Assembly (NCBI GenBank): GCA_902628375.1 | Contig: CACOMS010000013.1 | Location: forward strand, 1 to 32,895 | Direction of reading: 5' to 3' | Source of the DNA: an uncultured SAR86 cluster bacterium | GTDB lineage: Bacteria; Pseudomonadota; Gammaproteobacteria; Magnimaribacterales; Magnimaribacteraceae | DNA: 32,895 bases | In this document: positions 11,363 through 15,985 of the stretch, in pieces | Numbering within the stretch: the stretch's first letter is position 1 | How the letters are laid out: every line of letters starts with the position of its first letter | Translations under genes and position numbers: made by a program | The notes under the pieces: model-generated | The model's input: only the letters and a program-made list of their open reading frames with translations | What the model was told of the DNA's origin: nothing | Databases searched by the model: none

Positions 11363-12087
11363 GTCCAGATATCATAGCCCATAGAGGTTCTTCTAAAGAA
11401 GCACCAGAAAATACCATTTCTGCCATAAATCTATCTTGGTTGCATCTTTCTGATGGAGTAGAGGTAGATATAAGATCTACAAAAGATAATGTTCTATTGT
11501 GTCTACACGACAAGTCCCTCCTTCGAACAGGAGGATTAGATAGAAAACTTAAAGACTTAAAATATGAAGAAGTAAAAAACATAGACGTAGGTTCTTGGTT
11601 TAGTTCCAAATGGTCAGAGGAAACTTTACCTCCAATAGAAAAAGTACTTAGACACATACCGGAAGGGAAAAAAATATTTATAGAAGTAAAAGAAGAAGGT
11701 TTAACTGATAACTTAATAGAAGAAATTAATAAGAGCCCAGTAAATAACGATTGCATTAGAGTAATTTCATTTTATGAAAATGTAATTAGAGAAATTAAAG
11801 AAAAGACAAATCTAAAAGCTAATCTATTAATTTCATTCACACAGCAAAATATTTCTGTAAATGCATTAAAAGAAAAATTAGTTGAATTAAAGGCAGATGG
11901 GATAGGAGCAGAGAATCATAAATTATTGAATAAGGAATTCGTAAACGAAATGACAAGCGTAAACAAAGAAACTCATGTATGGACTGTAGATAACTCCGAC
12001 GAAGCACTAAAATACCTAAAAATGGGAATCGCTTCTATTACGACTAATATCCCTAAAAAGATAAAAGAAACTATACAAAAAAACTAA
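11353..12087 (+). CDS. Glycerophosphodiester phosphodiesterase family protein, non-canonical start
   Basis: Hydrolyses glycerophosphodiesters to glycerol 3-phosphate and an alcohol, a TIM-barrel GDPD. Numbered from a CTG at 11353, the catalytic pair His10-Arg11 lies in IIAHRGSS, followed by APENT, the metal ligands Glu37 and Asp39 (VEVD), His52 (LHD) and the conserved IFIEVKEE. The first ATG/GTG/TTG codon in the frame is TTG at 11440, which would remove HRG and PENT and destroy the active site. Upstream the frame is open only back to a TGA at 11326. The start is therefore probably CTG 11353, or another rare codon, overlapping the end of nrdB by 10 bp. No signal peptide is visible, so it is probably cytoplasmic. 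About 244 aa. Confidence 0.78.
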
Positions 12088-12112
12088 AAAGTATTTATTA
12101 TCTCCAACTGTA

Positions 12113-12481
12113 ATGAAAAACCACGCTAAAGGTTTCTTAGATTTAGTTTCCGATGCTTTAAATAAAGTGCCGGAAGTGGATGTTTTTGAAGTTAAATCAA
12201 AGATAGAAACTGGACAAGATATCTACCTTATCGATGTCAGAGAAGACCATGAATGGATAGAATCCAAGATCCCGGCTTCCATCCATATAGGAAAGGGCGT
12301 CATAGAAAGAGACATAGAGTCAATTATCCCGCAAAAAGAAAAAGAAATAATTCTTTATTGCCAAGGAGGATATAGATCTGCTTTAGCAGCTGAGAGTCTA
12401 AAAAAAATGGGATATAGCAATGTCTATTCCATGCAAGGAGGTTTTGGTTACTGGGTAAGTAATAACTTTGAAACTTTATAA
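12113..12481 (+). CDS. Single-domain rhodanese-like sulfurtransferase
   Basis: A 122-residue protein with one rhodanese domain covering about residues 22-118. The substrate-binding DVRE motif is at 41-44, and the active-site loop CQGGYRS starts with Cys83, which should carry the persulfide sulfur. The GYSNVYSMQGGFGYW segment is the typical family C-terminus. It probably moves sulfur to thiols or cyanide in the cytoplasm; the natural acceptor is not predictable. The ATG has no Shine-Dalgarno sequence, but a TATTAT lies at 12096-12101, so a separate promoter with a very short leader is possible. Otherwise it sits 25 bp after the GDPD gene in the nrdA-led gene row. Confidence 0.87.
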   Translation: MKNHAKGFLDLVSDALNKVPEVDVFEVKSKIETGQDIYLIDVREDHEWIESKIPASIHIGKGVIERDIESIIPQKEKEIILYCQGGYRSALAAESLKKMGYSNVYSMQGGFGYWVSNNFETL

Positions 12482-12489
12482 GGAAAAAT

Positions 12490-13104
12490 ATGAAACTTTA
12501 TACAACCACATTAGCTCCAAATCCTAGAAGAGTAAGGATCTTTATGGAAGAAAAAGGAATTGAAATACCAGTTCAAGAGATAAGCATTATGGAAGGAGAA
12601 CATAAACAAGAAGAATACAAAAAGATATCTCCTTCGAGCAAAGTGCCCGCACTTGAATTAGATGATGGAACTGTTATTACAGAAAGTATGGCTATCTGTA
12701 GGTATCTAGAGTTATTGCATCCTGAGCCTGCTTTATTTGGTTCTTCAAAAGTTGAACAAGCAAAAATTGAAATGGAAAGTAGAAGGATAGAGCTTGAATT
12801 AATGCTTCCTATAGCTTCTGCTTTCAGACATACACATCCTGCTGCTGCTGCTTTAGAAAACCCACAAATTGAGGAATATGGAATAGCTCAAAGGGAAAAT
12901 GCTATTAATAGATTAAATCTACTGGATGAGGAGTTAGGAGAACAAAAATTTATCGCTGGCGATGATTACTCTGTTGCTGATATAACAGCTCTTTGTGCAA
13001 TAGATTTTGGTGGATTAGCTCAAATAGAAGTGCCCTCTTCTCTAGTTAACTTAAGTAGATGGCTAGAGAATATGAGATCAAGGCCTTCTTCAGCTCAACA
13101 ATAA
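12490..13104 (+). CDS. Glutathione S-transferase family protein
   Basis: A 204-residue cytoplasmic protein with the two-part GST architecture. The N-terminal thioredoxin fold (residues 1-80) contains the cis-Pro loop SKVPALELDDG and the glutathione-binding TESMAICRYLE. The C-terminal helical domain (about 85-200) contains the N-capping box segment GDDYSVADITALCAIDF. The N-terminal APNPRRVRIF matches GST classes that use Ser or no conserved catalytic Tyr. The likely role is conjugating or reducing an electrophile with glutathione. A Shine-Dalgarno AAGGA precedes the ATG, 8 bp after the rhodanese gene. The MDR oxidoreductase that follows after 15 bp suggests a detoxification pair. Confidence 0.86.
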   Translation: MKLYTTTLAPNPRRVRIFMEEKGIEIPVQEISIMEGEHKQEEYKKISPSSKVPALELDDGTVITESMAICRYLELLHPEPALFGSSKVEQAKIEMESRRIELELMLPIASAFRHTHPAAAALENPQIEEYGIAQRENAINRLNLLDEELGEQKFIAGDDYSVADITALCAIDFGGLAQIEVPSSLVNLSRWLENMRSRPSSAQQ

Positions 13105-13119
13105 AATAAAGGAATAAAA

Positions 13120-14220
13120 ATGAAAACAAGTAGACAAATAAGATCATTAATAACAGAGGAAGCTAAGCTCGAACTATCAATACAAGAACACGAAGTACCA
13201 GACCCTAAAGATGATGAAGTACTAATAAAAGTTGAAGCTTCGCCTATCAATCCTTCAGACCTAGGCCTTTTATTGGGCCCGGCAGATGTAACCACCATGG
13301 AGTCAAACGGCGAGGTAGTAACTATGGATGTGCCTCAATCACTTTTGAGATCTGTGGGAGCTAGAATTGGTCAATCTTTACCTGTGGGTAATGAAGGCTC
13401 AGGAACTGTTGTAGAAGCAGGAAAAGATGCAGAGCACCTAATTGGCAAAATGGTTGGTTTGGCAGGTGGATCTATGTATTCCGAATACCGTTGTGTTAAA
13501 GCAAATGCTTGTCTTGAAATGAACGAAGGAACTTCAGCTGCTGATGCAGCTTCGTGCTTTGTTAATCCATTAACTGCGTTAGGCATGGTAGAAACCATGA
13601 GAATGGAAAATCACACAGCACTCATTCATACTGCTGCGGCATCAAACCTTGGGCAGATGCTTATTAAGATATGCATAGATGAAGGAGTACCATTAATTAA
13701 TATAGTTAGAAAAGACGAACACGTAGAGCTTCTAAAATCTTTAGGTGCTACTCATGTATGCAACTCATCTTCAGATAATTTTATGTCGGATCTAGTAGAA
13801 GCACTCGTTGATACGGGTGCAACGATTGGTTTTGATGCAACTGGAGGTGGAAACCTTTCAAGCCTTCTATTAACTGCTATGGAAGTCGCTGCGAACAAAA
13901 CAGCTACAGAATACAGCAGGTATGGTTCTGATTCATTTAAACAAGTCTATATTTATGGTGGATTGGATAGATCTCCAACTACTTTAACTAGATCTTTTGG
14001 TTTTTCTTGGAGCTTAGGTGGCTGGCTTCTAACTCCATTTATTGGGAAAATTGGTCCTGAAAAATTTCAAGAATTAAGACAAAAAGTTGCAGATGAAATC
14101 CAAACGACCTTCAAAAGCAATTACACGAAGGAAATAAGCCTTGAAGGCGTGCTTGAAATAGAAAATATCGCAGAATATGCACAACAAGCTACGGGTCAGA
14201 AATATTTAATTACTCCTTAA
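13120..14220 (+). CDS. MDR-superfamily NAD(P)H-dependent oxidoreductase (quinone reductase/enoyl reductase-like)
   Basis: A 366-residue medium-chain dehydrogenase/reductase. The N-terminal GroES-like domain contains the SPINPSDLGLL and GNEGSGTVVEAG motifs. The Rossmann domain contains HTAAASNLGQMLIKIC as its nucleotide loop and ends in GLDRSPTTL and a C-terminal EISLEGVLEI segment. The Cys/His zinc ligands of alcohol dehydrogenases are absent at the expected places, so it is closer to quinone oxidoreductases and enoyl reductases than to zinc dehydrogenases. The substrate is unknown. It sits between the GST gene and the redoxin-cytochrome-monooxygenase gene, only 1 bp before the latter, and may supply reductant or act on a shared substrate. 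Confidence 0.83.
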   Translation: MKTSRQIRSLITEEAKLELSIQEHEVPDPKDDEVLIKVEASPINPSDLGLLLGPADVTTMESNGEVVTMDVPQSLLRSVGARIGQSLPVGNEGSGTVVEAGKDAEHLIGKMVGLAGGSMYSEYRCVKANACLEMNEGTSAADAASCFVNPLTALGMVETMRMENHTALIHTAAASNLGQMLIKICIDEGVPLINIVRKDEHVELLKSLGATHVCNSSSDNFMSDLVEALVDTGATIGFDATGGGNLSSLLLTAMEVAANKTATEYSRYGSDSFKQVYIYGGLDRSPTTLTRSFGFSWSLGGWLLTPFIGKIGPEKFQELRQKVADEIQTTFKSNYTKEISLEGVLEIENIAEYAQQATGQKYLITP

Positions 14221-14221
14221 C

Positions 14222-15985
14222 ATGAAAAGATTAGTACTTTTTCTTAACTTCTTTTGTTTATCTACTTATGCGGTGACTCCTGGAGAAACTGTAGAAAACT
14301 TTAGACTTGAAGATCATAAGAGAGACTCTCATGAACTTTATTATTATAGAGAATCTAAGGCCATAGCATTTATGGTTCAAGGAAATGGATGTCCTATAGC
14401 TAGAAATGCTGCTGTTGATTATCACAAACTTAAAGACCAATACGAAAGTAAGGGAATAAAGTTCCTGATGATTAATTCTAATCTTCAGGATAGTGTTAAA
14501 TCAATTAGAGATGAAGCTCAAGAGTATGAGTATGAAATTCCTATACTTAAAGATGAAACTCAATTAGTAGGAGAATCCTTACTTCTAACAAGAACCGGAG
14601 AGGTTTTTTTAATAGATACTTCTGATTGGAAGATAGTCTATTCAGGTGCGCTAAACGACCGACTAACTTATGAAAACCAAAAAGAAGTAGCAACTAAATT
14701 TTTTCTTGAGGATGCAATTAAGAATACTCTTGCAGGCAAAGAGGTAGAAGTAAAACAAACTGAAGCACTAGGATGTCTCATGAATTTTCCAGAACAGAGA
14801 AATCTTCAGAAACACACTAAAATTTCTTATTCTGATGAAATAGCCCCAATACTAATTTCAAATTGTGTTGGCTGTCATAGAAAAGGAGGCATAGGCCCCT
14901 GGGCTATGACTGACTACAAGATGATTCAAGGATTCTCTCCAATGATAAGAGAAGTGCTTAGGACCAAAAGAATGCCCCCTTGGCATGCAGATTCTGAAGT
15001 TGGTCATTTTTCTAACGACAGATCTCTTACGGAAAAGGAATTTAAAACTTTAGTACATTGGATAGAAGCAGGTTCTCCTAGAGGAAAAGGCGAAGATCCT
15101 TTAGCCAAGCTTCAAGTCTCAGAAACTAAATGGGCAAATGAACAAATTTTTGGAAGACCTCCTGACTATGTGGTTAACTTACCTAAAGTAGAAATACCCT
15201 CTTCAGGAGTTATAGATTACAAATATTTGACGAAGAAAAACCCTATTACTGAAGATATCTGGGTTGGCGGTGTCGAATATTCACCTGGCGATTCTCAAGT
15301 ACTTCACCACATAATTACTTCTTTTGGAAAGAATCTGAATAGAAGAGAAATGGAAGGATTTAGTGGGTATGCTCCTGGAATTACAAACGGGCCTTTTCCA
15401 GATAACACAGGCATCTTCTTACCTAAAGATGTAACCTTTTTATTTCAAATGCATTACACAGCAGTTGGCAGAAAAACTTCAGATCAAACTCAAATGGGAA
15501 TTTGGACTTTAGATGAACCTCCTAAATATGATCTAGAGTCTATCACTATGATTAATACACGAATTAAGATACCTGCTAATTCCAATAATCATGTAGAGAG
15601 AGATACTCATAAATTGAAAGAAGACGCATGGCTTTATTCGATGTTGCCTCATGCGCATTATAGAGGCAAGTCAATGAGAATATACGTCGTATACCCAAAT
15701 GGAACTAGAGAAGTGCTTCTTAATGTACCTAACTATGACTTTAATTGGCAGACTGATTACTCTCTTGACGAACCGAAACTACTTCCGAAAGATTCAATAT
15801 TGGTCCAAATTAACATGTGGGATAACTCATCATCTAACAAATCTAATCCCAACCCTAACAGGGATGTTTATTGGGGAGAACAGTCCTTTGATGAGATGCT
15901 ATTTGGAAACTATTTAATTAGATATGCTAGTGCAGAAGAGGTAGAAGAGAATAAAGAAAAGCTTAGCTTGTTATCTAAGAGATAA
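14222..15985 (+). CDS. Redoxin / cytochrome c / PHM-like copper monooxygenase fusion protein, exported
   Basis: A 587-residue exported protein. A signal peptide covers residues 1-17. A thioredoxin-like redoxin domain (about 18-185) has a lone active-site-type Cys57 (GNGCP) and another Cys185. A c-type heme motif CVGCH lies at 215-219, with Met251 (RMPPWH) a possible axial ligand. The remainder resembles copper type II ascorbate-dependent monooxygenases (PHM/DBH family), and all six copper ligands can be matched: His362-His363 and His411 (QMHY) for the first copper, His477-x-His479 (LPHAHY) and Met559 (DEM) for the second. It may hydroxylate a C-H bond in the periplasm, with electrons coming through its own heme and thiol domains. 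It starts 1 bp after the MDR gene with no Shine-Dalgarno, implying coupled translation. The domain calls are firm; the function is inference. Confidence 0.82.
   Translation: MKRLVLFLNFFCLSTYAVTPGETVENFRLEDHKRDSHELYYYRESKAIAFMVQGNGCPIARNAAVDYHKLKDQYESKGIKFLMINSNLQDSVKSIRDEAQEYEYEIPILKDETQLVGESLLLTRTGEVFLIDTSDWKIVYSGALNDRLTYENQKEVATKFFLEDAIKNTLAGKEVEVKQTEALGCLMNFPEQRNLQKHTKISYSDEIAPILISNCVGCHRKGGIGPWAMTDYKMIQGFSPMIREVLRTKRMPPWHADSEVGHFSNDRSLTEKEFKTLVHWIEAGSPRGKGEDPLAKLQVSETKWANEQIFGRPPDYVVNLPKVEIPSSGVIDYKYLTKKNPITEDIWVGGVEYSPGDSQVLHHIITSFGKNLNRREMEGFSGYAPGITNGPFPDNTGIFLPKDVTFLFQMHYTAVGRKTSDQTQMGIWTLDEPPKYDLESITMINTRIKIPANSNNHVERDTHKLKEDAWLYSMLPHAHYRGKSMRIYVVYPNGTREVLLNVPNYDFNWQTDYSLDEPKLLPKDSILVQINMWDNSSSNKSNPNPNRDVYWGEQSFDEMLFGNYLIRYASAEEVEENKEKLSLLSKR

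Follow-up and report, generated by a model that had tools for sequence, protein, structure and literature searches.

The gene at positions 14222-15985 (+) of the window, the 32,895-nucleotide stretch of SAR86 cluster DNA analysed here, encodes a protein of 587 amino acids that joins a redoxin, a cytochrome c and a domain resembling peptidylglycine monooxygenase (PHM). The protein is probably a periplasmic dicopper C-H monooxygenase of the PHM/DBH fold (DBH, dopamine beta-hydroxylase) with an attached electron-transfer domain. This reading draws on the domain make-up, the fold, the register of the copper ligands, their conservation and the constant association of the heme with the PHM domain, which were established in the analysis. 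The protein belongs to a large, widespread bacterial family and is not a one-off fusion.

The gene was delimited by its ORF, Pfam, AlphaFold2 and homologs; it starts with ATG and lies on a contig from a genome of 1.13 Mb that is 67% complete. The closest named relatives among the matches listed from GTDB genomes are gammaproteobacterial, a SAR86 bacterium among them, and homologs align over the full length at 39-60% identity. The order of signal-like N-terminus, redoxin, heme-c site and C-terminal PHM/DBH-type domain is confirmed. Three domains had been proposed in the first-pass annotation, an architecture now backed by profile-profile alignment, AlphaFold2 with Foldseek and conservation, and the residue positions given there (H362-H363, H411, H477/H479, M559, C57, C185 and 215-219) are all correct. 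Residues 1-19 (MKRLVLFLNFFCLSTYAVT; 14222-14278, +), read directly from the letters, have a basic start and a hydrophobic core followed by A-V-T; this signal-peptide-like N-terminus, which is of low confidence in the AlphaFold2 model, suggests export to the periplasm. The five cysteines of the protein are C12 in the signal region, C57, C185, C215 and C218.

A set of 79 proteins, consisting of the window protein and its homologs from GTDB genomes, was aligned. Residues C57, C185, C215, C218, H219, M251, H362, H363, Q409, H411, H477, H479 and M559 are identical in 79/79. The loci had been retrieved with sequence patterns near the heme (MPPWHAD and GGxxPWAM), which do not include the copper ligands, and unbiased evidence therefore comes from the copper and thiol residues alone. 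The conservation of M229 and M251 in this set is for the same reason partly selected. Chance is ruled out as the origin of the architecture and the redox residues.

The PHM/DBH-like dicopper domain comprises residues 306-572 (15137-15937, +), as judged from Cu2_monoox_C matches in relatives, hhalign and Foldseek. The CuH site corresponds to H362-H363 (15305-15310, +; PHM H107-H108) and Q409-x-H411 (15446-15454, +; PHM Q170-x-H172), both found in 79/79 proteins, and the CuM site to H477-x-H479 (15650-15658, +; PHM H242-x-H244) and M559 (15896-15898, +; PHM M314), both found in 169/169 distinct relatives. All six ligands are present in 161 of these 169, and across several bacterial phyla there is almost no change at the two copper sites. 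Copper is predicted to bind at both. In six relatives on a distant branch (L167, L168, L169, L225, L226 and L227) the first CuH histidine is replaced by Tyr or Phe, while the CuM ligands and the other two CuH ligands are kept.

Neither the whole protein nor the copper-domain profile found a PHM chain when the PDB was searched by sequence, and hhalign and Foldseek were therefore needed for the distant homology. With hhalign, a profile of the 306-572 region built from 60 sequences matched rat PHM (a sequence checked to be identical to PDB 1yip) with an E-value of 1.1e-4 over 223 columns; the six ligands and Gln170 were all in register, in the motifs HH, QxH, HxH and EM. A MAFFT alignment of 169 bacterial domains with PHM gave the same register, so the match of six residues to the PHM copper sites that the first-pass annotation had put forward holds in both alignments, and the residues are conserved. 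The AlphaFold2 model obtained with 60 sequences (pLDDT 90.5, pTM 0.85) replaced one from 11 sequences (pLDDT 69). Structure prediction had been suggested as a check, and the C-terminal half of the model has the PHM fold of two jelly-roll halves, the top Foldseek match being PHM 3mll (E 1.1e-14, 284 columns), with human DBH 4zel also matched (E 7.8e-12). The TM-score to PHM is about 0.6 (by target) with an rmsd of 4-6 Å, and the two half-domains may therefore sit differently than in PHM. A profile search, likewise suggested, gave a divided result: the window protein itself stays below the Pfam cut-off for Cu2_monoox_C (16.2 bits against 23), whereas 58 of 60 aligned relatives match the family at E<=0.1, at best 7e-6. 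Taken by predicted fold and ligand sets, membership of the C-terminal domain in the PHM/DBH copper type II monooxygenase superfamily is supported.

The cytochrome-c domain, residues 195-304 (14804-15133, +), is recognized by the CxxCH motif (CVGCH, 215-219), the conservation of M251 in an MPPW motif and a Pfam Cytochrome_CBB3 match below threshold (16.6 bits against a cut-off of 27). The CxxCH motif is found in 167/169 distinct relatives, the remaining two being cut by contig ends. When relatives were collected through the copper domain alone (n=81), 79 had CxxCH and 17 a redoxin, the two lacking CxxCH being those cut by contig ends. M251 is kept in 162/167 relatives and M229 chiefly in those that have the redoxin, which makes M251 the better candidate and the likely distal heme ligand. 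The same genome encodes CcmF (E 1e-72), which is needed for periplasmic attachment of heme c, and the predicted attachment to the window protein is therefore plausible.

The redoxin (AhpC-TSA) domain, with C57 and C185, covers residues 20-192 (14279-14797, +) according to Pfam, PDB matches and conservation. It is the sole domain of the window protein above the Pfam cut-off (AhpC-TSA 4e-10, Redoxin 2e-8, at residues 20-147), and it matches PDB 2ywi, 2cvb and 3u5r both by sequence and by fold, with a TM of 0.82 to 2cvb in Foldseek. A redoxin is present in 105/169 distinct bacterial relatives and absent from 62 that carry the heme. On the copper-domain tree the redoxin label needs two changes, compared with about 50 if shuffled, when three contig-truncated rows are left out, and four gains or losses with all rows; with two changes, the redoxin is essentially confined to a single part of the tree. 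The redoxin is thus optional and was probably added or lost later than the partnership of heme and PHM domain was formed. In about 40 relatives of the redoxin type (L003, L066, L085, L110, L149 and others) the protein ends in an extension of some 70-95 amino acids with EF-hand-like calcium motifs, which the window protein lacks.

The lasting domain partnership is that of heme and PHM domain. As these are constant and the redoxin is optional, the heme is a likelier electron port to the coppers than the thiol pair. The first-pass annotation had proposed that electrons come from heme and thiols together. Its heme part is favoured indirectly, since every untruncated relative found with the PHM-domain profile has a heme-c site; its thiol part is not, given the 62 heme carriers without redoxin, and the C57/C185 pair was set aside as a feeder of the coppers. 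The pair is ordinary in free-standing redoxin relatives (C57 in 21/21, C185 in 19/21) and so gives no special evidence for such a role.

In PHM, ascorbate supplies electrons one at a time to two coppers that are 11 Å apart (PMC6123673). In the proposed mechanism for the window protein, a periplasmic cytochrome or similar donor would reduce the tethered heme c, which would pass single electrons to CuH (H362, H363 and H411) and so take the role of ascorbate in animals. CuM (H477, H479 and M559) would bind O2 beside the substrate and hydroxylate it. The redoxin would be an accessory of one sublineage that the core reaction does not require; it may maintain the reduced state of the domain or the copper, or have a thiol or peroxide as its target. 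Transfer from heme to CuH is inferred from the co-occurrence of heme and PHM domain and from the fact that each copper of PHM requires one electron (PMC6123673); hydroxylase activity is a prediction. A broader proposal has about even chances: that bacteria have a widespread, uncharacterised class of hydroxylases with the PHM fold whose covalently tethered heme c supplies CuH with single electrons instead of ascorbate, and whose periplasmic O2-dependent C-H hydroxylation acts on new substrates.

The neighbourhood of the gene was compared among 80 loci and five SAR86 relatives, and no general conserved neighbour that would point to a pathway was found; the neighbours vary from lineage to lineage. 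In the window a gene for a protein like zinc-type alcohol dehydrogenases or quinone oxidoreductases (Pfam; 13120-14220, +) ends one base before the target gene and is probably co-transcribed with it; this neighbour is missing from the neighbourhoods of the five SAR86 relatives. It is the last of a group of tightly packed upstream genes on the same strand (11440-14220), encoding GDPD, rhodanese, glutathione S-transferase and the zinc-type dehydrogenase, that possibly form one transcript with the target. Some SAR86 relatives have genes for an M28-like peptidase and an SDR as neighbours. In one SAR86 group (L053:4105-5135, L231:6391-7668 and L232:7404-8681) a secreted protein with the MsrA motif GCFWG is encoded directly downstream on the same strand.

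Other roles for the protein were considered. The copper domain could be real without being a heme-fed hydroxylase, with electrons flowing in reverse, as in an oxidase or dehydrogenase that feeds the heme, or with H2O2 driving a peroxygenase whose redoxin handles peroxide. The redoxin is of the AhpC-TSA type and has a Cys pair, the gene adjoins a secreted methionine sulfoxide reductase in one SAR86 group, and H2O2 can bypass the reductant requirement of PHM (PMC6123673). However, the MsrA neighbour is found in three loci only, the redoxin is missing in the 62 heme carriers, and the CuH ligands are kept although a peroxygenase does not need them; this explanation is considered unlikely.

Somewhat less likely again is a protein mainly concerned with thiol redox or copper handling, with His/Met clusters that store copper or deliver it and a heme c that senses redox state. 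The copper, thiol and heme proteins of the cytochrome-oxidase assembly route (Sco, PcuC) combine such domains, and the one domain above the Pfam cut-off is the redoxin, but the whole two-domain PHM fold and both sites are conserved, far beyond what copper carriage needs, and no cytochrome-oxidase assembly genes were found as neighbours at the loci examined. That the domain is a degenerate, inactive PHM relative retained as a binding module is very improbable: the PHM substrate residues R240, N316 and Y318 are not conserved, but inactive relatives usually lose ligands, and here several bacterial phyla have kept both copper sites almost without change.

The family is widespread. At least 567 related loci were found in GTDB genomes. 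Of the 34 further genomes searched within the same family, seven have full-length relatives and an eighth the N-terminal part; when the class was sampled evenly, full-length relatives were found in only three other genomes. With a copper-domain probe, matches were obtained in 76/141 genomes of the phylum of G333 (Myxococcota), with up to 14 per genome, in 31/64 genomes of the phylum of G334 and in 17/148 genomes of the phylum of G335 (Bacteroidota). Paralogs have expanded strongly in some of the Myxococcota genomes G970, G963, G874, G928 and G944, with 9-14 copper-domain matches per genome, and Steroidobacter and Peristeroidobacter (G337 and G338) have three each. Initial scans with a single protein found no relatives on genome or viral contigs, and a plasmid search gave only free-standing redoxins and one heme-less PHM-like protein of an Actinomycete. 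A full-text search of the open-access literature found no paper describing the fusion family. The family is thus a widespread variant of the PHM/DBH kind, abundant in public genomes, for which no characterised member was found.

PHM and DBH are usually regarded as animal proteins fed by ascorbate, PHM making animal peptide hormones, and how electrons are delivered to and shared between their distant coppers is a long-debated question. If the bacterial family does have both copper sites and a built-in heme donor, electron entry could be followed by heme spectroscopy. Replacement of ascorbate by heme, if true, would mean periplasmic O2-dependent C-H hydroxylation independent of a small-molecule reductant. 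The family also points to as yet undescribed hydroxylation chemistry in the periplasm of SAR86-like marine bacteria, Steroidobacter, Myxococcota and Bacteroidota, and some of these carry many copies.

Compared with known systems, the window domain has the fold, both ligand sets and Gln170 in common with PHM (EC 1.14.17.3; Pfam PF01082 and PF03712). The window protein differs in being bacterial and in its tethered heme c and redoxin, and its copper domain is without cysteines and hence has none of the PHM disulfides. Arg240, Asn316 and Tyr318 of PHM, which we take to be its peptide-binding residues, are replaced by Leu475, Phe561 and Asn563; these positions vary in the family, with no Arg at the R240 position among the relatives tallied. 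Because the three residues are not conserved, peptide C-termini are improbable as substrate, which is probably not a peptidyl-glycine. A PHM-like protein of Nonomuraea gerenzanensis (L234:2138-3466), an ORF in an unannotated stretch, has the HH, QxH, HxH and M motifs of the window protein, but it is lipoprotein-like and has neither CxxCH nor redoxin; the link to heme is therefore not universal among bacterial PHM-like proteins. Human DBH (4zel) shares the copper-monooxygenase fold by Foldseek at about 13% identity and differs from the window protein in its DOMON domain and in lacking both heme c and redoxin. The free-standing AhpC-TSA/thioredoxin-like redoxins (2cvb, 2ywi and 3u5r) have the same fold and the same CP...GC cysteine pair as the N-terminal domain, but they are single-domain proteins, whereas the window redoxin is fused to heme c and PHM domains.
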